Of a DNA stretch of 64,000 nt, positions 5,350-47,027 are shown one piece after another. Source of the stretch: a virus; the IMG/VR virus record IMGVR_UViG_3300009159_005447, positions 1 through 64,000 of that record. One strand, given 5' to 3'. A program made the position numbers and the translations under genes. The notes beneath the pieces are model-generated. The model made no database searches. It was given only the letters and a program-made list of their open reading frames with translations, and had not been told where the DNA came from. Numbering within the stretch: position 1 is the stretch's first letter; every line of letters begins with the position of its first letter.

Positions 5350-7398
5350 TTACTTTTCGTGAGCTACAAACTCACCGTTCCAGTTGTCACCTAGATCTTG
5401 TTGCTTCATAAAGTCGCAACGCTCGATCCAAATCTTGTAGTACTTGTCCATCTGTCCACCAAAGTTGCCTTTTAGCTTACCGCACATAGCGGCAGCTTCG
5501 TCAAACTTTTTCTGGCGGTACAAGTCGTGCATTACTTCGTGTGCTATTTTATCTCTGGTGTAATCCACACCCTTGGTACGTAGTACTGTATAGATTAAGT
5601 CTGCCACTGTTTTACCTTTTGGTTGTAGGTTGTCCAGCAACAAGTAGAAGAAATCATCCTTGGTTCTATTATACGTTTCTGCTCCGACAATGGCCAAAAC
5701 TCCATAGGCCTTACAACGTGCTTCTAATCTTGCCGCAGTACTAACCATATCACCTAAGATGTCATAACTATGGCGTTCTGTGCTTCCCATTTCGCCGATA
5801 AAACCAATGCCACTGTTACAACCCCAGCCCATTGCCGCAGGTGGTAAACCTTGTGCTTCCATAACTTTAGTGTATTCATCTACTTTGTCCAACATCTCTA
5901 ATCCTACGGCAACAATTGTACGTGCGTGGTTGGGGTCTTCAATGGGAGCACCGTGTATGTGCATACTTGCGTCGCCTACATACTTGATAATCATACCCTT
6001 GTTGTCCAACATCGGTTGACTGATAGCATCCATATAACCATTCATATACTTGCCCAGCCCGGCAACGTCATCGCCGTAGTATTCACCAATTGGTGTAAAG
6101 CCACGTAGGTCACTGAACATAACTGATACATCCTTACGTACACCGCGCTTGATTAAGTCTGGATCTTTTTGCAGTAACTCTACAACTTCTTTTGAACAGT
6201 AACCAGCAAACTGTTTCTTAATTGCTTGTTTCTGCAAGAATTCACTTACAAACTTAACACCATAAGCGTGAAGCATAACCAAAACAAGGCCCCCGACCGG
6301 AATAGTCGCGTCCACGAGCTGTAGGCCACTGCTATATGCGTATCCACATAAAGGTATAATAGAGCCAATAATAACAACACCTGCGCCAATACCAACATAA
6401 GTCCACCTTGTTAAAAACAATAATAAAATTCCGGCCAAGGCAATGCCAATCAGTTCGGCACCATCAGCCCAATCCGGACGCTGAATCACAGTGCCGTTTA
6501 CCATTGTGGCAACAGCCGCAGCCTGCATATCCTGTGGCCATACACTGCCAATGCTAGTTGGTACGGGATTACCTAGTCCTGCTGCCGCAGTGCCTACTAT
6601 AACAATAGCACCGCCGAAGTCTTTGGGCAAGTTCATTAGACTTACACTCTTAGATTTCTGACTCCAGTCAATCCAAATACGCCCCAGGTTGTCTGTGGTA
6701 ATGGGACCAAACTTTGGTATACGCATTTTCTCTACACCATTTTCAGACAACTTAACCTGAAAGGTGCTGTCGCCTGCGGCTAGTCGTAAAGTTTCCATTG
6801 CCAGGCTAGGATATAGTTTTTCTTCAACACTGACAATCAATGGTAAACGACGATTTACACCATCCACTTCGGGCAGTGTATTAACAATACCAACACCGTA
6901 GGCATTGTTTTCTAACACAGGCACGTTGGCAATCAATCCTGGATACTGAACAATTTGATCTAGAAATTCAGGGCCTAATACAGCGGCACCCGGGTTCCTT
7001 GGACTATTACGTGTACGGTCACTGGGCACACTGGGCAATATAACTGGATAATGTTTTAGTGTAGATGCAAGCCGAGCATCCTGCCCGCTTCTGTCCGGGT
7101 TGGGCATAAGCACGTTAAACACAACCAAGCCAGCATTACGTGCATATAGGTCTTCAATGATCTTAGCGTATTCTCCGCGGGGCAAAGGCCATTGTCCAAA
7201 TTTAGTAAGACTATCTTCGTCGATGTTTACGGTGTAGATGTTATTTTCCGTGGCTTCTTTACTGACAATTAGTGTATCAAAATATCGCAGTCTTACACTT
7301 TCAATGAAAGTAGGATCTGCAATTCTAACACCCAATACCAGCGCCAATGTAAGCAATGCTGTCCAAGGACTAATTAATATTTTTTTAAGGTTGTTCAT
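5350..7398 (-). CDS. CHASE2-domain membrane adenylate cyclase
   Basis: This 682-residue protein has an N-terminal membrane helix (~11-25), an extracytoplasmic CHASE2 sensor (~28-300), three membrane helices (~312-390) and a cytoplasmic class III cyclase domain (~420-600). Metal-binding aspartates D430 (FSDLRGFT) and D476 (YVGDA) are present, as are K472 and D546 (YDILGD), the pair expected for ATP rather than GTP. Transition-state Arg557 is kept, but the usual Asn is Ser553 (MVSTAARLE). It would make cAMP in response to a periplasmic signal. CHASE2 cyclases and FecR-domain proteins often co-occur in bacteria, and a FecR protein is encoded 2 kb away. A phage copy is unusual; activity with Ser553 is uncertain. 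Confidence 0.92.
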   Translation of the reverse strand: MNNLKKILISPWTALLTLALVLGVRIADPTFIESVRLRYFDTLIVSKEATENNIYTVNIDEDSLTKFGQWPLPRGEYAKIIEDLYARNAGLVVFNVLMPNPDRSGQDARLASTLKHYPVILPSVPSDRTRNSPRNPGAAVLGPEFLDQIVQYPGLIANVPVLENNAYGVGIVNTLPEVDGVNRRLPLIVSVEEKLYPSLAMETLRLAAGDSTFQVKLSENGVEKMRIPKFGPITTDNLGRIWIDWSQKSKSVSLMNLPKDFGGAIVIVGTAAAGLGNPVPTSIGSVWPQDMQAAAVATMVNGTVIQRPDWADGAELIGIALAGILLLFLTRWTYVGIGAGVVIIGSIIPLCGYAYSSGLQLVDATIPVGGLVLVMLHAYGVKFVSEFLQKQAIKKQFAGYCSKEVVELLQKDPDLIKRGVRKDVSVMFSDLRGFTPIGEYYGDDVAGLGKYMNGYMDAISQPMLDNKGMIIKYVGDASMHIHGAPIEDPNHARTIVAVGLEMLDKVDEYTKVMEAQGLPPAAMGWGCNSGIGFIGEMGSTERHSYDILGDMVSTAARLEARCKAYGVLAIVGAETYNRTKDDFFYLLLDNLQPKGKTVADLIYTVLRTKGVDYTRDKIAHEVMHDLYRQKKFDEAAAMCGKLKGNFGGQMDKYYKIWIERCDFMKQQDLGDNWNGEFVAHEK

Positions 7399-8258: not shown

Positions 8259-8409
8259 TTTTCTTGGGCTCCTTATCCTTGGGCGGAGGTTTAGTCCATT
8301 CTAAACATACAACTCTACGATTATAAACATCGCCTGACCACGTCCACTTTACACATCTAGGCTGATCTAGTACTGCACCAAGCATTATTAATAGTCCAGA
8401 AAACATCAT
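8251..8409 (-). CDS. Small membrane or secreted protein (52 aa)
   Basis: I place the start at 8409, where ATGATG overlaps the upstream TGA stop; 8406 is equally possible, and the longer frame to 8457 lacks a usable start context. A hydrophobic N-terminus (MMFSGLLIMLGAVLDQ) precedes a short part with two cysteines and a Pro/Lys-rich tail. It overlaps both neighbours, so it is coupled to the curlin-repeat gene upstream. Function unknown. Confidence 0.6.
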   Translation of the reverse strand: MMFSGLLIMLGAVLDQPRCVKWTWSGDVYNRRVVCLEWTKPPPKDKEPKKNA

Positions 8410-9533
8410 TGGCCTTGTACCACAGTGATCTTGGCACATCCGCCGGCAGTGGCACAATTAAATTGGATGGCGTATGTTTGTGGTGAGGACCCAGACTGTG
8501 ACAATGACAAATCAACTGGCATTCCAGTTAATCCTATTTTAGTTGAATGGTTCCCTGAACCTTGTTGTAGCACATCTACATTTTTTTGGCCGCCAGTCAA
8601 CGTAATCTCGGCATAGTGATTACCAGAGTCTTTTTGCTGTAGCAACACACTATTGTTGTTGTCTTGGATCTTTACGTAGGCGCCCTTATAACCGCCGGTA
8701 CTTTGCTGTGTAATGTTGGCATTATTTCCATTGCCTGTTATAGCAAGTTCGGTATAGTTGACCATTGTGCTAGCATTGCCTGTTTGATTTATGCTAACGT
8801 TATTATTAGAACCGTTGCCTTCGTAACGAACAGCATTGTTTCGGGTGCCAGATTGATTTACCGAAATAGTATTGCCATTGCCAATTTGTTCTATATAGAC
8901 CTGAGTGTTATTGGTAGTACGATTAACAAAGGTATTACGTCTAGTAGTCCATTGTGTATCTGGGGATATTGCCACACCCGACTGTCCACCACAGCACAGA
9001 CTAGGTGCCGCAGGTGCCGCTGTTTGTCCAGCAGTCAGTGGCTCAGTGGAATAATTACTAGCATAACTATTAGCTTGTGCCATTGTGGGGTTCAGTGTGC
9101 CAGTCCAGGTCACCCCGCTGGTGTTAGCCATACCAGAACTACCGCTGAATAGTTGTCCTGTATCGTTGTCATTGCCTACAAAGAAGAAATAGTCTGAGCC
9201 CATATTGACAATATGACCAGTGCCCATATTTGTTTTGGCAACACCATTACTGCCATATTGTACAGCCAGCCACGGATTGTTAGCATCTTTATGTTCGTTA
9301 GACTGGAACTGTATATAATCACCTGCGGCCCATTGTATTTGTCCACTGGTCCACGGTATTTTATACGCCGTTCCTGGATTCTTGCTGTAGATTTGACAGG
9401 TGCTTGTAGTAGTACAAGCACTAACATTCCATTGACTATCCGCAATCTGGTATCTGCCAAACTTAATATCAGTGAGTGCGGCAAAAGCATTACCGCATAA
9501 CAATAGTAGCAATAAGAATATTGTTTTCATCAT
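8406..9533 (-). CDS. Secreted protein with C-terminal curlin repeats
   Basis: The 375-residue precursor has a signal peptide (cleaved near residue 18-19, NAFA|A). A Ser/Thr/Asn-rich N-terminal domain (~20-205) with a C-C-G-G motif follows. A C-terminal region (~210-375) carries curlin-type repeats such as VYIEQIGNGNTISVNQSG, with Asn and Gln ladders at the spacing of CsgA/CsgB. Curlin repeats stack as an amyloid beta-solenoid. The N-terminal domain may display a cargo or bind a surface. It overlaps the FecR gene by 4 bases (ATGA) and lies downstream of CsgFG. Amyloid formation is inferred. Confidence 0.85.
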   Translation of the reverse strand: MMKTIFLLLLLLCGNAFAALTDIKFGRYQIADSQWNVSACTTTSTCQIYSKNPGTAYKIPWTSGQIQWAAGDYIQFQSNEHKDANNPWLAVQYGSNGVAKTNMGTGHIVNMGSDYFFFVGNDNDTGQLFSGSSGMANTSGVTWTGTLNPTMAQANSYASNYSTEPLTAGQTAAPAAPSLCCGGQSGVAISPDTQWTTRRNTFVNRTTNNTQVYIEQIGNGNTISVNQSGTRNNAVRYEGNGSNNNVSINQTGNASTMVNYTELAITGNGNNANITQQSTGGYKGAYVKIQDNNNSVLLQQKDSGNHYAEITLTGGQKNVDVLQQGSGNHSTKIGLTGMPVDLSLSQSGSSPQTYAIQFNCATAGGCAKITVVQGQ

Positions 9534-10630
9534 TTAACATTTCTTCGCAGTCCCGAGTTTTGCTTTATGTAAACAACATTGCCACCGGGCGATCCGTCGC
9601 CAATCAATTCAGACGCCGCAGAATCATTGTGAACTACAGTGATTAAAGTATTTGATGAATAACCTTGTGTTTTTACTTCGGCATAATGTTCGTTTTCTGT
9701 GTTACGGTATGCTATGCCCTTACCTCTGGCTGACAATTCGCCTTCGCTTTTTTCCCACAGAACGCAAACAGTTGTTGTGGCGTTACAACTTGTATCTATT
9801 TTGTAACTGTTGGCTGCAATAATCTTTGCTTGCTCTTCGGTATCTTGTTTTTTGATTTTCTCACCTAGTCTACGTGCTTGCTCTTGCTCTTCTTGTTCTT
9901 GATCTTGATCTTTTTTAGTTTTACCACTTTGCGTATTAATGGCTCGCACAATCTCCATTGGCTTTACAATGATTAAGTTATTTGATATTTTTGATTCAGT
10001 CATATTCATTACCACAGGCGGCGTAGGCGGCAAATTGCTACTTGCCACAAACGTTCCTTGGAATGCGTGATCCAATACAACCTTGCCCGCTGATGTTTCT
10101 ACTTCAATACTGCCCACACGGCATTTGTTTTCTTCTAGTTCGTATTCTTTTACTTTTTCGCCTTCTTTACAACTAGGAACTAACACTATCAATGACTGTC
10201 CTGTTTCGTCAACTGTCATTGTAAAATCTGTGCCGCGAACGGCAACACTGGCGGTGGGTGTTTTTATTGCTACCTGCTGTGCATTTGTTTTTGCTATTTG
10301 ACCGCTGGCATAGCGGACGGTGCCCATACCCACTTTAAGTGCTAACTTACCTGCATCGCTTTTCTTTGGATCAAAGACAAAATCATCAATTAGAAGGCGA
10401 CTGTTTTCTGTTATTTTTACTTTTGTATCATCTACAAAGGATAATTGAACACTGCCATTTTTTGTAGTGTAGATATCGTTACTTTCGATACCGGCGCCTT
10501 TGGTACCCGCAACTTTATCTTTGCCGCGAGTTATTTCTCCGGGTGCCCCTGTTGATTCGGCCACATTGCCAATGCCCGCCCAGGCACTAGCACTTGCAAA
10601 TAAGCACAAAAATAACACAAGACTACGCAT
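9530..10630 (-). CDS. FecR-domain secreted protein
   Basis: The 366-residue precursor has a signal peptide (MRSLVLFLCLFASASAWA). A FecR domain spans ~40-165 (DGS-like turn, ITENSRLLIDDF, TPTASVAVRGTDF). It is followed by a Gln/Glu/Lys-rich linker (~235-270) and a C-terminal beta-rich domain with curlin-like features (YIKQNSG). FecR domains form extracytoplasmic beta-helical modules, here without an anti-sigma partner. It sits between two curlin-repeat genes in the csg-like run. It may be a surface scaffold or a sensor partner for the CHASE2 cyclase; the latter is inference from known co-occurrence. Confidence 0.88.
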   Translation of the reverse strand: MRSLVLFLCLFASASAWAGIGNVAESTGAPGEITRGKDKVAGTKGAGIESNDIYTTKNGSVQLSFVDDTKVKITENSRLLIDDFVFDPKKSDAGKLALKVGMGTVRYASGQIAKTNAQQVAIKTPTASVAVRGTDFTMTVDETGQSLIVLVPSCKEGEKVKEYELEENKCRVGSIEVETSAGKVVLDHAFQGTFVASSNLPPTPPVVMNMTESKISNNLIIVKPMEIVRAINTQSGKTKKDQDQEQEEQEQARRLGEKIKKQDTEEQAKIIAANSYKIDTSCNATTTVCVLWEKSEGELSARGKGIAYRNTENEHYAEVKTQGYSSNTLITVVHNDSAASELIGDGSPGGNVVYIKQNSGLRRNVK

Positions 10631-10631
10631 A

Positions 10632-11399
10632 TTACCTTGCTATTGCGGTTCTTGGATTTGTTATTGTACTGGCACTGCTGGTACGAACAGTGATGGTGTT
10701 ATTGTCACCGGTGGTTTTAATGTCAATAGTGGTATCGTTAGTACCTTGCTGTTGAGTCATTATGCTGTTGCTACTACCACTGATTATTTGTTTTAAGAAA
10801 TGTCCATTGGCACCACTGGCATCAAACTGTTCAATGTCAAGTTTATTGCCACCGCCCGTGATACTAATGTCACTTATACCATTGGAACTTTTTAAGTCTT
10901 TGGTAATAACGTTAGTGCTACCCGTAATAGCCAAAGTACTTTGGATATCACTGCCAATGATATTTTGAACAACGGTGTTACTATCACCAGTGATAGTTTC
11001 AGTGATTTTGTTACGCAAATTACTTGCGTTGGTACTATCGCCCACTGTTAACTTAGTGCTATTGTTATTGCCGGTAACAGTACTGGTATACTCGTTATTA
11101 TTACCTTTAATATTGTATTGGCCTAAATTGTTATCGCCCTTTTGAATCATCGCGACGGTATTGCTATTACCGTTGATAGTAGCATAGTTGGTATTACTTG
11201 CTGTGACATTGGCAATACCGCCGACAGTGTTAGTGCCGCCGGTTTGCTCTATTGTCACAGTATTGGTGTTACCAATCTGTTCAATGTAAACTTTGTTAGG
11301 GCCCGTGGAAGTATTTAATACTTGCGCCATACCTGATCCTGTTAGCAATAGTAATGCTAACCCTGAAAGCACCTTATTATATTTTTTATAATGCTTCAT
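10632..11399 (-). CDS. Curlin-repeat amyloid protein (CsgA/CsgB-like)
   Basis: The 255-residue precursor has a signal peptide (~1-25) and then almost only curlin-type repeats rich in Asn, Thr, Gly and Gln: VYIEQIGNTNTVTIEQTGG near residue 38, then repeated G-N-x-N-x-(T/V) turns to ~240. This is the main fibre-subunit candidate for the CsgG channel encoded upstream. The gene has an odd leader: the AAGGAG is 35 bases from the ATG, with a 9-bp hairpin between them. Whether it is nucleator- or major-subunit-like cannot be told. Confidence 0.9.
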   Translation of the reverse strand: MKHYKKYNKVLSGLALLLLTGSGMAQVLNTSTGPNKVYIEQIGNTNTVTIEQTGGTNTVGGIANVTASNTNYATINGNSNTVAMIQKGDNNLGQYNIKGNNNEYTSTVTGNNNSTKLTVGDSTNASNLRNKITETITGDSNTVVQNIIGSDIQSTLAITGSTNVITKDLKSSNGISDISITGGGNKLDIEQFDASGANGHFLKQIISGSSNSIMTQQQGTNDTTIDIKTTGDNNTITVRTSSASTITNPRTAIAR

Positions 11400-11407
11400 C
11401 TAATTTC

Positions 11408-11440
11408 AATAATTAGTTATTGTTCCTAATTATTCTCCTT
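11408..11440 (-). promoter_or_regulatory. Hairpin between ribosome binding site and curlin start
   Basis: Perfect 9-bp arms (11408-11416 and 11426-11434) separate AAGGAG (11435-11440) from the ATG at 11399. If folded, the hairpin shortens the 35-base gap to an effective 8 bases. This suggests structure-assisted initiation; inference from sequence only. Confidence 0.55.
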
Positions 11441-11492
11441 GGGTTGTTTGCTACCTGCAAACCTAACTTTCGACCTACTACGCTTTTAGATA

Positions 11493-11526
11493 TTTGCCAG
11501 ACTGTAGGTCACTTGTCATCTGGCAA
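11493..11526. repeat. Inverted repeat between csgG and curlin gene
   Basis: Arms TTTGCCAGA and TCTGGCAAA flank a spacer of about 16 bases just after the csgG stop. No strong T-run follows, so it looks more like an mRNA processing or stability hairpin than a terminator. It would allow different levels of CsgG and curlin. Confidence 0.5.
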
Positions 11527-11533
11527 ACATATT

Positions 11534-12559
11534 TTATTTTTCTTCTTCTCCAAAGATTTTAACTGCAAGTCCTGTGACTTCGTCTTTAATTGTGTATGTG
11601 AGTCCTGTGACTCGCTTAGTAAATTTTCCCCAGAAACCTTCAGTTTCAGTTCTTTCATTATTTTTGCTGACGTTGGGCTTAGGTGGTGGGGCTGTAACTT
11701 CGGTGGTGTCTTTAGGTGGGGCTTTCTCTTGAACCAACTCATTCTTTTTCTCCTCCTGTTTAAAGTTCCAGTGCCCTTTACGAGCACCTTCGCGAATGGT
11801 ATCTACAACGGCTGCCTGTATAGCCAGGCTAGTTGCTTTGTTAATGCTTTCATTGATGCTTGCTCCAATCTCAGCTTCAACTGCACTGGTGCCATCTTGG
11901 GCAAATCTCAACAAGCCTGCTTTGTCCATATAACTTAGTACCGTCTTTGTGACGGTTACACTGGTTAGTACTTCTCCGGTGCTAACACTTACTGTTCTTA
12001 AATTAACTGTAACAGTATCGCTTTGGTATTGTGTACTAGTACCAATGCCCAATACCCTTACACCACTGCCACCAGTTAAGGTATTCGAGTCATAGCCAAC
12101 GATGCCGCCTTCAACAATGACGCCGGCAAATACCATTGGTGGTAAAGGTTGAGCATCGCGTCCTTGGTATTGCTCACGTGCTTGGCGTATCATCTGTCTT
12201 TCTTTAATGATATTATCCAAGCCAACTCTTTCTAGTACAAGAAACCATTTGGCGTCGCCTACATCTTGTAATGCTTTGATTAAATAACTTTCTGCACCTT
12301 GTGTGACTGCTGAACTTAAACTGGCAATGTTTTGAATGCTTTTACGCTGGCCTGTTTTGTCTGTAAATCCGTAGACAGCAATAGTAATTGGACCACCTGC
12401 AGGCGCAAGCAATTTGTTGTCATCTTTTTTTAGATAAACATTTTGCTCCACAATCGGTTCGTCAAATTGGTTGCCCGTAATTAACTTACGAGTACTGCTA
12501 CTTATAGCACACCCCGATAATATTGTCACCGCCAGTAATAGAAATAATATTTTTTTCAT
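11534..12559 (-). CDS. csgG: CsgG-like curli secretion channel lipoprotein
   Basis: The 341-residue precursor has a lipoprotein signal with lipobox L-S-G-C (lipidated C17) and a CsgG core at ~50-270: IAVYGFTDKTGQ, WFLVLERVGLDNIIKERQ, the GGIVGYDSN beta-hairpin region and RTVSVSTGEVL. CsgG forms the nonameric outer-membrane pore exporting curli subunits. Here a Lys/Pro/Glu-rich C-terminal extension of ~70 residues makes it longer than the roughly 277-residue enterobacterial protein. Its start overlaps the csgF-like stop by one base. No CsgE or CsgD is seen nearby. Confidence 0.92.
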   Translation of the reverse strand: MKKILFLLLAVTILSGCAISSSTRKLITGNQFDEPIVEQNVYLKKDDNKLLAPAGGPITIAVYGFTDKTGQRKSIQNIASLSSAVTQGAESYLIKALQDVGDAKWFLVLERVGLDNIIKERQMIRQAREQYQGRDAQPLPPMVFAGVIVEGGIVGYDSNTLTGGSGVRVLGIGTSTQYQSDTVTVNLRTVSVSTGEVLTSVTVTKTVLSYMDKAGLLRFAQDGTSAVEAEIGASINESINKATSLAIQAAVVDTIREGARKGHWNFKQEEKKNELVQEKAPPKDTTEVTAPPPKPNVSKNNERTETEGFWGKFTKRVTGLTYTIKDEVTGLAVKIFGEEEK

Positions 12560-13050
12560 TAGAAATAGAACGTCCCTGCTGGTACTTTCATAGTAGTATT
12601 TTGTGAAGGGTTGCTATTATTTGTAATATTAATAATAATCAGACCGTTGTCAGATCCGTCACCTAATTTCCAAGTAATAGTGTTGCCTCCTAAATCCGGA
12701 ATAGACCCACAAACAATACCTTTGGTTGTACAGGTTGATCCTTCACCAAACATACTGTCTGTTAATTGTTTTGCTAATTGGCTATAAATCCTTGCTTCTA
12801 AATTAGCCAAGAATTTTGCTTGGGGAGTGTTTAATGCTTCAGCTTCTACCTTTGCTTTTAGTGTGTCGGACAGTGCTTTATTTTTATCTTTTTGTAGATC
12901 TTCTAATTGTTTTAGTGTTAGTACGTGACTACTGTACCCTGATCCACTGAATGCAGGACTATTAAACTGATGTGACAATTCGGCTCCGTGACTACACACG
13001 GCAACTAATAGCGCAGCCGAAATGAAAAGTTCTTTGACTTTTTTGATCAT
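12559..13050 (-). CDS. csgF: CsgF-like curli assembly factor
   Basis: The 163-residue precursor has a signal peptide ending around SHG|AE. The mature N-terminus (QFNSPAFSGSGYSSHVL) matches the CsgF segment that inserts into the CsgG pore (consensus F-x-N-P-x-F-G-G). A helical middle and a C-terminal beta part (WKLGDGSDNGLIIINITN) match CsgF's IVDIANRDGQLQL-like strand region. CsgF couples secretion to nucleation at the cell surface. First gene of the module, one base overlap with csgG. Two extra cysteines (CTTKGIVC) are present. Confidence 0.88.
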   Translation of the reverse strand: MIKKVKELFISAALLVAVCSHGAELSHQFNSPAFSGSGYSSHVLTLKQLEDLQKDKNKALSDTLKAKVEAEALNTPQAKFLANLEARIYSQLAKQLTDSMFGEGSTCTTKGIVCGSIPDLGGNTITWKLGDGSDNGLIIINITNNSNPSQNTTMKVPAGTFYF

Positions 13051-19165: not shown

Positions 19166-19216
19166 CGCCCAATACGTTGCAATTCCGTTACAGTTTTATT
19201 ACACAGTAAAAAGAAA

Positions 19217-19232
19217 ACCCGCCGAAGCGGGT
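19217..19232 (-). terminator. Intrinsic terminator of tmRNA gene
   Basis: Stem ACCCGC/GCGGGT closed by a TTCG tetraloop and followed by TTTTCTTTTT on the minus strand. Confidence 0.88.
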
Positions 19233-19421
19233 ATCTGATTTTCTGTTACGAGGTATGTCTTACCCTAGGCTGTGTTTTCACGCGGCCAATGCGAACTGTG
19301 AGTCGTTTGCGGTTACTTTGTTTTGCTTCTGCGGCCGGGAATCCCCAACCCTAACGGCTTCTACATTGCCGGACTGTCCATTTCATTACTCTTGACCCAA
19401 TCGATATCTATGTCAGGCCCA

Positions 19422-19520
19422 TCATAAAAAGACTATGTAACATACTATTGCCAGTATACTTACAAAGTTAAAAACACCACATACTACTTGGTATACGTAT
19501 TCTTCGCCTTTGTTACCCAT
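19422..19520 (-). CDS. Tiny membrane peptide in the tmRNA intervening segment (32 aa)
   Basis: The ATG at 19520 has TAAGGAG seven bases upstream and starts a 32-codon frame (MGNKGEEYVYQVVCG...) with a hydrophobic C-terminal half of single-membrane-span length. It lies exactly between the acceptor piece's CCA end (19533) and the coding piece's 5' end (19420), in the segment that would be cut out during two-piece tmRNA maturation. It may be a real coupled gene or a chance frame. Confidence 0.5.
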   Translation of the reverse strand: MGNKGEEYVYQVVCGVFNFVSILAIVCYIVFL

Positions 19521-19603
19521 AATATCTCCTTATGGTGGACCTGCCGGGAACTGCCCCCGGGTCTTGAATCCTTTTCAATCTACTTCATACAGTCTTAAAC
19601 TAC

Positions 19604-19632
19604 ATTATATATTTATTTTTGGGCGGCGTCAA
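19604..19632 (-). promoter_or_regulatory. Sigma-70 promoter of tmRNA (TTGACG-17-TATAAT)
   Basis: Strong promoter with 17-bp spacing, embedded in the 3' end of the small upstream gene. The start point would fall just before the acceptor piece. An AATAAATA late-like core overlaps it (19608-19615). Confidence 0.85.
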
Positions 19633-19786
19633 TCGCTTTGGTGACAATGTTGTAGACCTGTGCATACGTATCTGTAATTTGATCCAATTGTTGTTCTGTG
19701 ACCAAATCATTATCCTCTAGTAGAACCAGGTCACGAGCTAGATTTTCTTGAAGATTTTTTAGTTGGTTTTGATCAGGTTGAGACAT
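19613..19786 (-). CDS. Small helical hypothetical protein (57 aa)
   Basis: The start at 19786 (MSQPDQNQLKNLQENLARD) follows the radical SAM stop with a one-base gap. The longer frame to 19864 lies inside that gene and is rejected. The product is Gln/Asp/Leu rich and probably one or two amphipathic helices. Its 3' end carries the tmRNA promoter. Function unknown. Confidence 0.65.
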   Translation of the reverse strand: MSQPDQNQLKNLQENLARDLVLLEDNDLVTEQQLDQITDTYAQVYNIVTKAIDAAQK

Positions 19787-33711: not shown

Positions 33712-34302
33712 TTACCGTTTGTCTACTACTTTATCTGCTAACCCGTACTCTACGCTTTGAACTGCACTCATAAAGTTATCGCGATCCATATCTCGCTCAA
33801 GCTCTTCGTAGGTCTTATTTGAGGTATTGTGCTTGACGTAAAGGTTGGTCAAGTTGCGTTTCATAATCAAAATTTCTTCAACCTGGATTTTCATATCAGA
33901 TGCTTTACCGCCTGCTCCGCCGCTGGGCTGATGAATCATATGTCTTGCACTGGGTAACATTAAACGTTTACCCGGTGCTCCTGCTTGTGCTAGCAAACTG
34001 CCCATAGAGCAGGCCTGCCCCATAACGATAGTTGACACATCAGGTTTGATGAACTGCATAGTATCGTAGATGGCCATACCAGCAGTAACAACCCCACCGG
34101 GACTATTGATATAAAAAAGAATATCTGTATCCGGATTGTCGCTTTCCAGAAATAGCAGTTGTGCAACAATTAGACTAGCACTGTGATCATTGACATCGGT
34201 GTCCAGCATAACAATGCGGTCTTTAAGTAAACGACTGTATAAATCGTAACTGCGTTCGCCTTGGCTGGTTCGTTCCAGAACCATTGGCACTAAATTTGGC
34301 AT
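33712..34302 (-). CDS. clpP: ClpP protease subunit
   Basis: The 196-residue protein is full length with the catalytic triad S99 (GQACSMGS), H124 (HMIHQPSGG) and D175 (ERDMDRDNF). The N-terminal L-V-P-M-V-L-E segment that forms the axial loops is normal, so no long propeptide is needed. ClpP forms the tetradecameric chamber fed by ClpX, which this phage encodes at 45491. It has its own sigma-70 promoter. Cytoplasmic. Confidence 0.96.
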
Positions 34303-40621: not shown

Positions 40622-40726
40622 TTATTTGGTGCCGCAGTTACAACTGCGTCCTTGGACACAGTTTTGGTTACAGTGTGGGTTTGGTTTGAAGAATTCTTTA
40701 AAGAATCCTAGTATAGACTTGATCAT
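40622..40726 (-). CDS. Cys-rich mini-protein (34 aa) downstream of clpS
   Basis: The frame MIKSILGFFKEFFKPNPHC continues into a Cys-rich tail (CNQNCVQGRSCNCG) with five cysteines, a possible metal or zinc knot. It overlaps the clpS stop by 4 bases (ATGA). Short proteins with this C-N-Q-N-C...G-R-x-C-x-C signature occur in phages. Function unknown. Confidence 0.65.
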   Translation of the reverse strand: MIKSILGFFKEFFKPNPHCNQNCVQGRSCNCGTK

Positions 40727-41037
40727 TCTGCTTCAAGTTTAACTTGTAGTGGGAACCCGTGACTACGGGCTAAAATGGTAACTTCAATGCCTTTTTGCTC
40801 AGCTAATTCATAAGGCATAACAGCAACTACAGCAGATCCATCATCGTGAATCTTTTGAGTTAATTGCATCGCAGATTCTCTGGATATATCAAACACGCTA
40901 ACTAAACTTTCAACCACAAATTCCATTGTAGTAGTGTCGTCATTAAGATATATAACTCGAAACAAACTAGGCTCCTTAAAGTCAGTGTTTGGGTTAATTT
41001 TTGGTTTTATAATAGTGTCTGTGATAGCATCTGTCAT
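40723..41037 (-). CDS. clpS: ClpS adaptor protein
   Basis: The 104-residue protein has the ClpS core: YLNDDTTTMEFVVESL (~30-45, N-end-rule pocket), K-I-H-D-D-G-S-A (~62-69) and PYELAEQK (~76-83), with a disordered N-terminal extension. ClpS delivers N-degron substrates to ClpA; no clpA is seen here, so it may redirect the host ClpAP. It follows hsp20 and has a late-type promoter and strong leader hairpin. Confidence 0.92.
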   Translation of the reverse strand: MTDAITDTIIKPKINPNTDFKEPSLFRVIYLNDDTTTMEFVVESLVSVFDISRESAMQLTQKIHDDGSAVVAVMPYELAEQKGIEVTILARSHGFPLQVKLEAE

Positions 41038-41050
41038 TAATATCTTTCAA

Positions 41051-41072
41051 AATGCGGGGTTTCCCCCGCATT
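41051..41072 (-). terminator. Strong hairpin: hsp20 terminator and/or clpS leader
   Basis: A 9-bp stem aatgcgggg/ccccgcatt with a GAAA tetraloop (minus strand) lies 5 bp after the hsp20 stop. The T-run behind is short, and the late core (41073-41080) abuts it, so it may also form the 5' end of the clpS mRNA. Confidence 0.65.
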
Positions 41073-41080
41073 GTATTTAC
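41073..41080 (-). promoter_or_regulatory. T4-type late promoter core for clpS (GTAAATAC)
   Basis: The core overlaps the hsp20 stop codon and lies 35 bp upstream of the clpS start. Confidence 0.55.
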
Positions 41081-41529
41081 TTGTCGGCTGAAGTGATTGC
41101 AATTTTACGTGGTTTCAATCCCTCGGGAATTTCGCGTTCAAGATTGATAATTAGCATACCGTTCTTGATTACTGCATCCTTGACAATTACGTGATCACCC
41201 AACGGAATGGTACGTTTAAAGCTACGGGTACTAATACCCTTGTAGATATAATTTACCTCATCTTTGTTGGCAGATTTTTCCCCGGTAATGGTGAGGTTAT
41301 TACCTGCTACGTCCACATCAATCTCATCCAATTGAAAACCGGCAACTGCAACCTCTAGGGCAAAGTTGTTGTTATCATATTTGATAATATTGTATGGAGG
41401 GTAGTTAGTACTGGTGTTTGATAATTGTTCGTGTGTACGAGCCAATTGTTCAAATACCTCGTCAAACCCTACGGTAAAACGAGTTAGTGGTGAAAAGTCT
41501 ATACGACCTATTGTTAGTCTTTCTGTCAT
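41077..41529 (-). CDS. Small heat-shock protein (Hsp20/IbpA family)
   Basis: The start ATG 41529 (MTERLTIGRIDFSPLTRFTV) has AAGGAG seven bases upstream; the longer frame is rejected. The 150-residue protein has an alpha-crystallin domain (~35-135: NNFALEVAVAGFQ, LTITGEKS, SFKRTIPLGDHV, GMLIINLERE) and a short tail. The tail carries K-I-A-I-T in place of the canonical I-x-I. It holds unfolded proteins for DnaK. It has a perfect early promoter and the leader hairpin shared with dnaK. Confidence 0.93.
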   Translation of the reverse strand: MTERLTIGRIDFSPLTRFTVGFDEVFEQLARTHEQLSNTSTNYPPYNIIKYDNNNFALEVAVAGFQLDEIDVDVAGNNLTITGEKSANKDEVNYIYKGISTRSFKRTIPLGDHVIVKDAVIKNGMLIINLEREIPEGLKPRKIAITSADK

Positions 41530-41542
41530 TTTTATCTCCTTA

Positions 41543-41584
41543 TTAAGCAAGACTTGTGTAGGGCCCGATTATCGGCACCCTACA
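41543..41584 (-). promoter_or_regulatory. Structured 5' leader of hsp20 (shared with dnaK)
   Basis: On the mRNA a 7-bp stem TGTAGGG/CCCTACA (41584-41578 with 41563-41557) encloses TGCC...GGG, followed by TCTTGCTTAA (41552-41543) before AAGGAG. The stem starts at the predicted transcript end. dnaK has the same element with two compensated base-pair changes. Confidence 0.7.
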
Positions 41585-41588
41585 TTTA

Positions 41589-41617
41589 ATTATACTAAAT
41601 TAGCTAGCATTTGTCAA
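41589..41617 (-). promoter_or_regulatory. Perfect sigma-70 promoter of hsp20
   Basis: TTGACA and TATAAT separated by 17 bp, immediately after the groEL stop. Confidence 0.93.
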
Positions 41618-41619
41618 CA

Positions 41620-43245
<1,626 letters not shown>

Positions 43246-43527
43246 TTACTCGATGATTGCCAACACATCTTCTTCTTTTAAGACGATATGTTCTTGATTA
43301 TTGATTTTGACTGTTTGTCCAGCAAATTTGCTATACATAACTACGTCGCCTTGTTTAACTTCCATTGGAATGACAATACCCTCATCGGTAACTCTGCCAG
43401 ACCCAGCTGCCACTACAGTACCCCTTAGGGGTTTCTCTTGTGCATTGTCTGGGATAACAATGCCAGACGCTGTTACGCTTTCGCCTTCTAGCGGTTTGAC
43501 TAAGATTCTATCTCGAGTTGGTTTCAT
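43246..43527 (-). CDS. groES: GroES co-chaperonin
   Basis: The start ATG 43527 ([20 protein letters not shown]) has AAGGA upstream inside the dnaK end. The 93-residue protein has the mobile loop region with S-G-I-V-I-P (~21-27) that binds GroEL and a normal beta-barrel ([22 protein letters not shown]). The pair groES-groEL is complete, unlike T4, which supplies only a GroES substitute (gp31). Confidence 0.96.
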
Positions 43528-43531
43528 AATT

Positions 43532-45430
43532 TTAATCCTTCTTGACTTCTTTAACTTCCGCATCAACTACATCAGCTGGTGCTTGTGCTACTTCTGGACT
43601 GGCTTCTGGCTTTTCAGCCTCAGACTTGACCTGCATAAGTGGGCTAGTAGTTTGTACGTATTCTCCAATCTTAGCATTGATATCATTGGCGTCGTCTGCC
43701 TTCATTGATTCCTTAAGAGCAGTCAAGGCCTCATTGATTTTAGTCAACTCTTCCACTTTGATCTGACTTCCGTATTTTTCAATGTCTTCGTCAAATTGAT
43801 TGATTACACCTTCTGCGCTGTTACGTGCTTGTACCAGCTCAATGTGCTTCTTATCGGCTTCGGCATTAAGTTCAGCATCCTTGACCATTTGCTGAATTTC
43901 AGCTTCGGTTAGTCCACTGTCGCTTTTAATGGTAATATTATTAGCTTTGCCAGTGGCTTTGTCTGTGGCACTAATCTTCATAATGCCATTGGCATCAATG
44001 TCAAAGGTAACTTCGATTTGTGGTTGGCCACGACGTGCAGGTGCAATTCCATCTAACTTAAACTCACCCAATACTTTGTTGTATTGGAATAGTTCACGCT
44101 CACCTTGTGCCACTTTAATATCAACTGCTGGTTGATTGTCGTCGGCGGTGCTAAACACTTGACTGTGTTTGGTTGGAATGGTTGTGTTCTTGGCAATCAT
44201 CTTAGTCATTACACCACCAAGAGTTTCAATACCCAAGCTCAATGGTGTAACATCAAGTAATAGAACGTCCTTACGATCGCCACCTAGTACAGCACCTTGT
44301 ACAGCGGCACCAGCGGCCACTGCTTCGTCTGGATTAACATCCTTGCGCGGCGCTTTGCCAAACAGTTTCTCAACGACTTCTTGCACCTTGGGCATACGTG
44401 TCATACCACCAACAAGGATAACTTCGTCAATGTCGTTGGATGTAACGTTTGCATCTTTCATAGCAATCTTGCAGGGCTCTAAGCTACGTTGAATCAATTC
44501 GTCAACTAGGCTTTCTAGTTTGGCACGTGACAACTTAATGTTCATATGCTTGGGACCAGTAGCATCTGCGGTGACATAAGGCAAGTTAACATCGGTCTGT
44601 GCGCTACTTGACAGCTCAATCTTGGCCTTTTCTGCGGCTTCTTTCAAACGTTGCAATGCTAGAACATCTTTACTTAGGTCAACGCCCTGGTCCTTCTTGA
44701 ATTCATCAATCAAGTAATCCATAATGCGTTGGTCAAAGTCTTCACCACCTAGGAATGTATCGCCGTTGGTGCTTAATACTTCAATTTGCTTGTCGCCATC
44801 TACGTTGGCAATTTCAATGATGGATACGTCAAATGTACCACCACCCAGGTCGTATACAGCAATCTTACGATCTTTCTTGTCTGCTTTGTCTACGCCGTAG
44901 GCTAGAGCGGCCGCAGTGGGCTCGTTAATAATACGCAATACTTCCAGACCTGCAATCTTACCTGCATCCTTGGTAGCTTGACGTTGGCTATCGTTAAAGT
45001 AAGCAGGTACTGTGATCACAGCCTGTGTTACTTCGTGACCCAAATAGTCCTCGGCAGTTTTCTTCATTTTACGAAGAACTTCGGCACTGATCTGTGGGGG
45101 TGCTAATTTATTGTCGTTAGCTTCAATCCAAGCATCTCCGTTATCTGCCTTGATAATTTTATAAGGCATTAAGTTGATGTCTTTTTGTACAGCCTCCTCA
45201 ACAAACTTACGACCAATTAAACGCTTGGCCGCATAAATTGTGCTTCTGGGGTTAGTAACTGCTTGGCGTTTTGCACTTGCACCAACTAGTATTTCGTCGT
45301 TAGTATACGCAACAATACTAGGTGTGGTTCTAGCACCTTCGCTGTTTTCAATTACTTTGGGGATTCCGTTTTCTACAACGGCTACGCAAGAGTTTGTGGT
45401 ACCCAAATCGATACCAATGATTTTGCTCAT
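43532..45430 (-). CDS. dnaK: DnaK (Hsp70) chaperone
   Basis: The 632-residue protein is full length. It has the ATPase domain (1-~385: [34 protein letters not shown]), the linker D-V-L-L-L-D-V, the substrate domain (~390-505) and the helical lid. It ends in an acidic tail with [12 protein letters not shown], like the EEVKKD end of bacterial DnaK. No DnaJ or GrpE is encoded in the window. It is transcribed from a late promoter that overlaps the clpX stop. The sequence style is betaproteobacterial, suggesting capture from such a host. Confidence 0.97.
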
Positions 45431-45445
45431 TTTGTTTCTCCTATG

Positions 45446-45483
45446 TTAAGCAAGAATGATGTAAGACCCAATGGCATCTTACA
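45446..45483 (-). promoter_or_regulatory. Structured 5' leader of dnaK (shared with hsp20)
   Basis: On the mRNA a 7-bp stem TGTAAGA/TCTTACA (45483-45477 with 45466-45460) encloses TGCCATTGGG, followed by TCTTGCTTAA (45455-45446) and AGGAG. Compared with hsp20, two stem pairs differ G-C to A-T with both sides changed. Confidence 0.7.
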
Positions 45484-45487
45484 AAAT

Positions 45488-45495
45488 TATTTATA
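45488..45495 (-). promoter_or_regulatory. T4-type late promoter of dnaK (TATAAATA)
   Basis: A perfect core overlapping the clpX stop; the predicted start point falls at the base of the leader hairpin. Confidence 0.75.
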
Positions 45496-46708
45496 CCTGA
45501 TCTTTAGTTTTTTTAAATTTTGTTCTAACAATTTCTTCCGTAATTTCAAGTTTACGTTCGGGCGATTTCTTTAACTTTTCAATGTCAAACAAATACGGTT
45601 GTACTATCTGCTCTAGTATACCCTTTAATGCCCTTGCACCACTTTCTAATTTAAGTGCTTCTTCTGCAATGGCTAATATTGCACCATCTGTAAAACTCAA
45701 TTCTATGTTGTCAATGTTAAAATAAAATTGTGTCTGTTTAATTAAGTTATTTTTGGGTTCTACTAGAATACGAACCAGTCCGTCGAGATCTAAATTATCA
45801 ACCTGTGTGATGATTGGAAAGCGTCCTGTAAACTCGGGAATCATTCCAAATTTAATAAAATCTTCTTGTCGGAAGTTACTGCGGTCAGTTTTACCTGATC
45901 CGGTAACGCTGTTAAATCCAATCTTGGATCCGCCAGCTAACCTTTTATCAATGATATTGTCAAGGTCAGTGAACGCACCGGCAGCAATAAACAGAATATT
46001 TTTAGTGTCTATTTCCACAGTATCGTTGGCAACGTTTTTGCGATTGTTGCTAAGTTTAATTTGACACTTTGTACCTTCAACCAGCTTGAGCAGGGCCTGT
46101 TGCACACCTTCGCCGGATACATCACGCACCAATGGACTTTCACTGCGCCGTGCAATTTTATCAACTTCGTCAATGAAGACGATGCCTTGTTCGCATTTTT
46201 CTATATCGTACTCGGCTTCGGCTAGCAGCCTACTGATCATACTTTCAACGTCTTCGCCAACATAACCAGCTTCTGTCAGAGTAGTAGCATCAGCAATAAC
46301 AAATGGAACTTTAAGGTAGCCTGCAATCTTACGGGCTAACAATGTTTTGCCTGATCCAGTGGGACCAAAAATTAAGATATTTGACTTTTCAACTTCTGCC
46401 TGTGGTTTGAAATATATGCGCTTATAATGATTTACAATGGCTACGCTGAGTGTAATCTTTGCGGCATCTTGCCCAACAATGTGCGTATCTAAATAACGTT
46501 TAACCTTGACTGGATCTAAAACTCCGTTGAGCTTCTTTTCCTTTTTAAGTTCGTCATTCTTTTCTTTGGTTAAGATATTGCTACAAAGGTCAATGCACTC
46601 GTCGCAAATACCAGCGTCATTGGCCACAATAAGTTTGTGTACTTCGTTGCGGTTCTTTCCGCAGAAGTTACAAAATACAGGTTGTGATGCTTGTAATATA
46701 TTAGTCAT
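45491..46708 (-). CDS. clpX: ClpX unfoldase
   Basis: The start ATG 46708 ([13 protein letters not shown]) overlaps the upstream gene by 8 bases. The 405-residue protein has the Cys4 zinc domain (C13, C16, C35, C38), Walker A GPTGSGKT, pore loop A-G-Y-V-G-E-D, Walker B F-I-D-E-V-D-K and TGRFPI. It retains the I-G-F loop (SKIGFN) that docks on ClpP. Together with phage ClpP and tmRNA this makes a complete tag-and-degrade route. Confidence 0.96.
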
Positions 46709-47027
46709 TCTTTGAAAAATATTCCATTGCAGTAGCGTAAGGTTGATCCTTACCAACCCACGTTATTTTACCCAGGACATCGTATAGTGGGATCAACCCT
46801 ACTGGCTCGGTATTGTCTCTATTAATTATAATATGACTGCACTCAAGTGCAACCTCGCTTGCCCATTTATTATCTTGCATACCATCGTGATAAAGATATA
46901 TTGTATACTCTTTATCACAGATACGCAACCAGCGCATTACCATATCAATGTCGATGGTTGTTGCGTTGAAAATAAGATATGCGTTGGGGGTGTTTGATTT
47001 ATCCGGGGGTGTTATTACCGTACTCAT
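46701..47027 (-). CDS. Hypothetical phage protein (108 aa)
   Basis: The protein has two strand-like halves: AYLIFNATTIDIDMVMRWLR, then E-Y-T-I-Y-L-Y-H-D and SHIIINRDNTEPVG. The plan (short strand, helix, strand with Y-H-D) occurs in T4-like phages downstream of the coiled-coil membrane gene. It overlaps clpX (8 bases) and its upstream neighbour (29 bases). Function unknown. Confidence 0.7.
   Translation of the reverse strand: MSTVITPPDKSNTPNAYLIFNATTIDIDMVMRWLRICDKEYTIYLYHDGMQDNKWASEVALECSHIIINRDNTEPVGLIPLYDVLGKITWVGKDQPYATAMEYFSKND

Follow-up and report, generated by a model that had tools for sequence, protein, structure and literature searches.

Permuted tmRNAs have so far been seen as RNA genes whose spacer is short and discarded. 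Their occurrence in phages is established: a 2021 study counted 53 two-piece tmRNAs in phage genomes and described a permuted tmRNA in phage Melnitz (PMC9004378), and the jumbo phage AP-J-162 is reported to carry a tmRNA together with six Clp proteins (PMC11242549). Protein-coding genes within structural RNA genes have also been described. In Coxiella, the intervening sequence of the 23S rRNA contains the S23 ORF, is excised by RNase III, and is reported to be untranslated and decaying (PMC4990558), whereas tmRNA group I introns, which are self-splicing, lie in the T-loop and carry homing endonuclease genes (PMC11915505). For the intervening segment (IVS) of permuted tmRNA genes, a 2025 tmRNA database paper notes one tRNA gene and one repeat, and mentions no ORFs (PMC11915505). 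Here we describe a large tailed-phage-type virus with a permuted tmRNA gene, the IVS of which, we are rather confident, doubles as a protein-coding slot, with translation of the encoded peptide predicted from sequence.

The stretch analysed here (the window; 64,000 nucleotides) is part of a 70,446-base IMG/VR virus record, which is itself a fragment. Covariance models and sequence reading delineate a complete permuted two-piece tmRNA gene at positions 19597-19205 on the minus strand, where all features of the locus given below are located. In a cmscan search, RF04321 (tmRNA_permuted) matched 19594-19278 over its full length with an E of 8.6e-18 and 97.9 bits, against a gathering score of 47, and RF01849 (alpha_tmRNA) scored 60.7 bits against a cut-off of 50, the best of its clan in the window. 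A predicted sigma-70-type promoter (19604-19632), which agrees with the consensus at 11 of 12 positions, consists of TTGACG (19632-19627), a 17-nt spacer and TATAAT (19609-19604). The acceptor piece (19533-19597, starting at about 19597) and the coding piece (G1 at 19420, with a provisional 3′ end at 19233) were delimited by the RF04321 alignment and covariation in relatives. The two pieces are connected by three helices: the acceptor stem, formed by GGGCCTG (19420-19414) and CAGGTCC (19543-19537), in which all seven of seven positions pair and G3:U70, the alanine identity pair, is present; the P2 helix, formed by 19570-19564 of the acceptor piece and 19400-19394 of the coding piece; and the outer helix, formed by GACTGT (19594-19589) and ACAGTC (19377-19372). 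The T-arm (19560-19544) has a GGCAGTT loop, and the discriminator A19536 is followed by an encoded CCA (19535-19533), which lies upstream of G19420. The tag frame (19310-19278) starts with the resume codon GCA, reads ANDSQFALAA-stop and has the hydrophobic ALAA end; a search of the window for a tag-like pattern gave one occurrence, and 100 shuffles gave none. The gene ends with an intrinsic terminator (19207-19232), in which a 6-bp hairpin, ACCCGC-UUCG-GCGGGT (19232-19217), precedes a T-run.

The initial annotation had proposed a permuted two-piece tmRNA with the CCA-bearing acceptor piece first, a 7-bp acceptor stem, a second ACAGTC/GACTGT helix, the ANDSQFALAA tag, a promoter and a UUCG terminator, and all of these were recovered. 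Of the kinds of check it suggested, covariance models returned scores above cut-off for both RF04321 and RF01849; ARAGORN did not report the gene. ARAGORN also missed the tmRNA genes of relatives with GGCAGTK T-loops, and a relaxed run yielded only noise; the GGCAGTT T-loop is probably the reason for the miss. A BLASTN search with the window tmRNA found no match among phage isolates. Thus, score, CCA and piece order, acceptor stem, G3:U70, covariation and tag frame all place the gene in the permuted tmRNA family (RF04321), and the window tmRNA is a real, further member of the already published phage-borne permuted tmRNAs.

A tag-based pattern search retrieved at least 119 viral stretches, and RF04321 passed its cut-off in 43 of the 50 related records searched whole, among the matches listed. 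The same anatomy, comprising G3:U70, CCA, T-arm and tag, recurs in about 100 phage contigs, with G3:U70 present in the fitted relatives and the tag ANDSQFALAA common to many phage permuted tmRNAs. The P2 and outer helices, which played no part in choosing the relatives, show many two-sided changes, and across the four helices 93% of cells pair, compared with 77% after shuffling of partners and no more than 58% after sliding of the strands. Two relatives, L293 and L298, fit beta_tmRNA and not alpha_tmRNA. The tmRNA at locus L075 looks mosaic, with a coding piece near that of the window and the 5′ part of its acceptor piece near L069, and its outer helix therefore pairs poorly.

Among phage isolates, the search found permuted tmRNAs in three: Melnitz, HTVC008M and Phosso. 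Melnitz (a cultivated phage of Methylophilales H5P1, MZ577097) resembles the window in having a permuted two-piece tmRNA (113.4 bits) near a curli operon. It differs in its tag (ANDNYVPVDYALAA), in that ClpP was not found in Melnitz, and in a reported glutamine riboswitch (PMC9004378), a counterpart of which was not found in the window. In the Sinorhizobium phage Phosso (PV764938.1, 349596-350198; L267), a permuted tmRNA of 113.3 bits with the tag ANDNVSTKVALAA lies in a stretch without annotated features. Its IVS of about 410 nt contains no obvious ORF led by a Shine–Dalgarno (SD) sequence, and the phage also encodes ClpX and ClpP.

In the window, acceptor pairing sets the boundaries of a 112-nt IVS (19421-19532), closed by a 9-bp terminal stem (19532-19524 with 19433-19425); its fold z is -2.26 alone and -4.65 with flanks. 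The 5′ strand of this stem contains the SD sequence AAGGAG (19526-19531), 5 nt before an ATG. The IVS thus reads UAAGGAG, 5 nt, AUG, 32 codons and UGA, and the stop ends 1 nt before G1, the RNase P site. This ORF (19422-19520), which the initial annotation overlooked while correctly describing the two-piece tmRNA, encodes a 32-aa product, MGNKGEEYVYQVVCGVFNFVSILAIVCYIVFL, predicted to be a single membrane-spanning peptide. The location of the SD sequence inside the stem may block translation. A homologue of equal length occupies the same place in L341, the IVS of which is also 112 nt (52% identity, E 1e-12 in a single comparison), and DNA patterns derived from the C-terminus of the window peptide retrieved L341 only. 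For this one pair, with 27 differences, pN/pS is 0.72 and the substitutions at codon positions 1/2/3 number 13/5/9, without a third-position excess. Given its SD sequence and its place, a 52%-identical homologue that agrees with it in position and length, and the behaviour of the group described below, the window ORF is probably coding.

The contrary view is that this is an ordinary phage permuted tmRNA, in which the tmRNA alone matters and the ORF is a frame left open by chance within an RNA hairpin. Consistent with that view, the window/L341 pair lacks clear purifying selection, and 43 of the 57 unique tag-found IVSs, among the matches listed, have no SD-led ORF running to the end. In the remaining 14 of these 57 listed IVSs an SD-led ORF reaches the IVS end, compared with an expectation of 0.4 from whole-IVS dinucleotide shuffles, or 1.6 if the first 16 nt are left unshuffled (no more than 5 in any of 200 shuffles). 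The IVS ORF is therefore common, not universal, in phage permuted tmRNAs. A second scan, which required an SD and an ATG after an acceptor end, gave, among the matches listed, 82 unique IVSs that have a matching coding piece; SD and ATG were thus selected for, but the length of the open frame, the position of its stop and the choice of frame were left free. Among these listed matches, 76 of the 82 IVSs have a frame that runs open until 14 nt or less from the end, with 8.1 expected from dinucleotide shuffles. For the listed IVSs of at least 150 nt, the SD frame is open in 35 of 39 against 0.36 expected, an excess of about 100-fold that is confined to this frame: the other two frames are open in 1/39 and 0/39. 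Still among the matches listed, 46 of the 82 have a stop separated from the coding piece by exactly 1 nt, 19 have no in-frame stop within the IVS, as in the MKYTALCP and EWYH families, and few are broken by a stop well inside it. The distance from the start of the IVS to the ATG is 9-14 nt, mostly 11-13, where the search pattern allowed 9-15. As a group, these IVSs have an SD sequence and a start codon followed by a frame that reaches the IVS end more often than expected by chance, and in 14 of 14 loci checked the RF04321 match spans the ORF. Tags are readable in 54 of the 82 (among the matches listed); 53 end in A, mostly as ALAA, and the ORF-bearing tmRNAs are therefore not broken.

Melnitz also has an SD-led ATG frame in its 142-nt IVS, which, unlike the window's, runs on without a stop as far as the RNase P site. 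This frame (MZ577097.1, 46096-46218; L266) starts with MFKWLSKTRLVV and reads MFKWLSKTRLVVITRDYFRERNRKADAKIPKYLSGTRSVYD; it is unannotated, and the region is labelled SsrA only in all four isolates. Two IVSs without an SD-led ORF, L032 and L048, contain tRNA-T-arm-like stretches (GGTTCGATTCC and GGTTCGAATCC, respectively), which are perhaps tRNA remnants.

The encoded proteins themselves also argue against a chance frame. Several contain recognizable domains, with Pfam matches to thioredoxin (L309, E 4e-21), DUF2061 (L289, E 3.5e-20) and CxxCxxCC (L277, E 1.3e-6), and 38 of the 82 encoded proteins (among the matches listed), as well as that of the window, have a membrane-like stretch. For the DUF2061 protein one match was obtained, to an environmental phage record, and the L115 IVS protein has no match in phage isolates. 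Across the aligned ORF families, substitutions at codon positions 1/2/3 number 149/91/317, the pairs within families not being independent, and median pN/pS is 0.36 (96 pairs), with most families well below 0.5 and a few near or above 0.7. Set beside this third-position bias in most other ORF families and the equal-length homologue of the window ORF at the same position, a chance frame is unlikely.

IVS content differs between phages. The window has a free gene of 57 aa (MSQPDQNQLKNLQENL...; 19613-19786, minus strand) just upstream of the tmRNA, and a homologue of this gene lies inside the tmRNA IVS of L298 (57% identity, E 3e-19 in a single comparison), which belongs to a relative of the window phage, as its AhpC and an outer-membrane-like protein are 83% and 59% identical, respectively. 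The IVSs of L318, L356 and L092 each hold two tandem ORFs; the second ORF of L318 resembles the only one of L030, and L092 combines the L129 ORF with another. Judged from these comparisons, IVS cargo is swapped or stacked among related phages. This variability and stacking could also mark the ORFs as selfish or decaying cargo that is hardly translated, like the Coxiella S23 ORF, whose protein is reported not to be made in vivo and whose IVS RNA is rapidly degraded (PMC4990558). Decay, however, sits poorly with SD sequences at near-fixed spacing, with purifying selection in most ORF families and with the scarcity, among the matches listed, of frames with a stop well inside the IVS. Against selfish cargo, no mobility protein was found among the ORFs except possibly the HNH-like L343, read as such by eye and without a Pfam match. 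We consider such cargo improbable, and favour the IVS as a protein-coding slot.

The ends of phage IVSs pair with covariation: in 126 IVSs, most of which end in TGAT, 94% of cells are paired over six positions, beginning with the fourth, versus 71% with partners shuffled between IVSs. The end hairpin is of the same type in bacterial IVSs, an example being AAAACCGGC...GCCGGCTTTTGAT. The two-piece tmRNAs of alpha- and betaproteobacteria (RF01849, RF01850) share with the phage genes the acceptor piece in first place, G3:U70, CCA and the joining helices, as well as an IVS hairpin that often ends in GAT. This common hairpin and GAT end favour a chance frame to the extent that a near-end stop comes free. 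By contrast, the IVSs read out in the sampled bacteria are short, 5-47 nt and one of 115 nt, without an ORF like those of the phages, and phage matches are longer (median span 273 versus 216, p 5e-13, with stricter filters applied to the 299 bacterial genomes). Phage lineages may have widened the loop of an ancestral processing hairpin, the 5′ strand of which would have become the SD sequence, while its conserved UGAU would have been used as the stop.

The window encodes several partners of tag-directed proteolysis on its minus strand. ClpP (33712-34302; PF00574, E 3e-76) has a Ser/His/Asp triad that aligns to E. coli-type ClpP, and ClpX (45491-46756), aligned to solved ClpX, has the zinc finger, Walker motifs (Walker A), the GYVG pore loop and the ClpP-docking IGF. 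ClpX and the adaptor ClpS (40723-41037; PF02617, E 1.2e-24) flank a chaperone/protease island (40723-46756) that also includes Hsp20, GroEL, GroES and DnaK, with ClpP nearby. SmpB was not found in the 70-kb record, a fragment, in 50 related records or in 8 more records, which include the complete genomes of Melnitz, HTVC008M and Phosso; positive controls worked. The initial annotation had suggested that the virus could run its own trans-translation. ClpX and ClpP with their functional motifs, and also ClpS, are indeed present, but no SmpB was found, so the suggestion is overstated: host SmpB, AlaRS and EF-Tu would be needed unless the missing part of the phage encodes them. The tmRNA most likely relies on host SmpB, and the tagged proteins may be passed to phage and/or host ClpXP.

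The lack of SmpB in the phages searched would also suit a tmRNA that is not a functional rescue RNA but acts against host trans-translation, as a decoy or an inhibitor. A tag-less tmRNA of phage DS6A, reported to inhibit the host tmRNA (cited in PMC11915505), offers a precedent. In the window, however, the tag frame is intact, and in most relatives it is ALAA-ended, as expected if the tag is used; a decoy therefore appears very improbable, and we retain the functional rescue RNA.

ClpP occurs in 17 and ClpX in 8 of the 50 related records. All five records above 100 kb in the first set contain ClpX and tmRNA together, a weak association given how the set was assembled and that it includes fragments. 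The idea of a conserved module of ClpX and tmRNA did not hold generally: besides the 8/50, a permuted tmRNA was present in 3 of the 17 viral records found through ClpX. A radical-SAM gene was likewise rejected as a conserved tmRNA neighbour, since the fetched flanks of its relatives in 13 viral contigs contained no tmRNA. A curli operon (8406-13050, minus strand), comprising CsgF-like, CsgG, curlin-like, FecR-like and second curlin-like genes (CsgG by search, the rest by eye and position), lies 6 kb from the tmRNA and has the gene order of Melnitz and HTVC008M. Among phage isolates, CsgG matched only these two and one short record. The window also holds collagen-like fibre genes (by eye) and a gene for a 682-aa protein (5350-7398, minus strand), CHASE2-adenylate cyclase-like by eye, which matches PHROG 35576, an entry without an assigned function. 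DnaK is nearest to that of Burkholderiales (about 71%), only a hint of a Burkholderiales host. Most candidate host genomes have, by ARAGORN, a one-piece tmRNA with a tag that is mostly ANDERFALAA or ANDERYALAA.

Taken together, we propose that a single transcript would run from the gene's own sigma-70 promoter to the UUCG terminator. From what is known of the family, host RNase P would cut before G19420 and a tRNA 3′ nuclease after A19533, and the two pieces would be held together by the acceptor, P2 and outer helices. Host AlaRS would charge the RNA via G3:U70, with host EF-Tu and host SmpB as partners, and ANDSQFALAA would be added to stalled chains, directing them to host and/or phage ClpXP. 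In the IVS stem-loop, the 5′ strand would serve as the SD sequence, the loop as the ORF and the conserved 3′ end, UGAU, as the stop. The same transcript would also encode the predicted 32-aa membrane peptide, and in related phages other peptides or small domain proteins. A functional coupling of mini-gene and tmRNA is conceivable but doubtful: RNase P cleavage would leave an IVS messenger that ends 1 nt after its stop, or is stopless, so that the tmRNA would tag the peptide from its own precursor, a self-limiting switch yielding membrane peptide only at low rescue capacity.

The arrangement resembles the Coxiella S23 system in that a protein ORF lies within a segment excised from a structural RNA precursor. 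It differs in that the latter involves RNase III and one protein family, whereas phage IVSs have RNase P-type boundaries, many unrelated cargos, conserved SD sequences and purifying selection in most families. As in tmRNA group I introns, a protein-coding gene is located within a tmRNA gene, but in the phages no intron is involved, and the cargo sits within a permuted gene, in its IVS, and is almost never endonuclease-like. A search of the open-licence literature gave no account of proteins encoded in tmRNA IVSs, and the IVS as a small-protein slot in phage tmRNAs seems not to have been reported before. The tmRNA by itself is a routine addition; the nested gene is the point of interest. If our reading is correct, a set of phage micropeptides has escaped annotation, as in the Melnitz region labelled SsrA only, a ribosome-binding site would be built into a processing stem with the stop set against the RNase P site, and one transcript would couple ribosome rescue with small-protein expression in aquatic phages.
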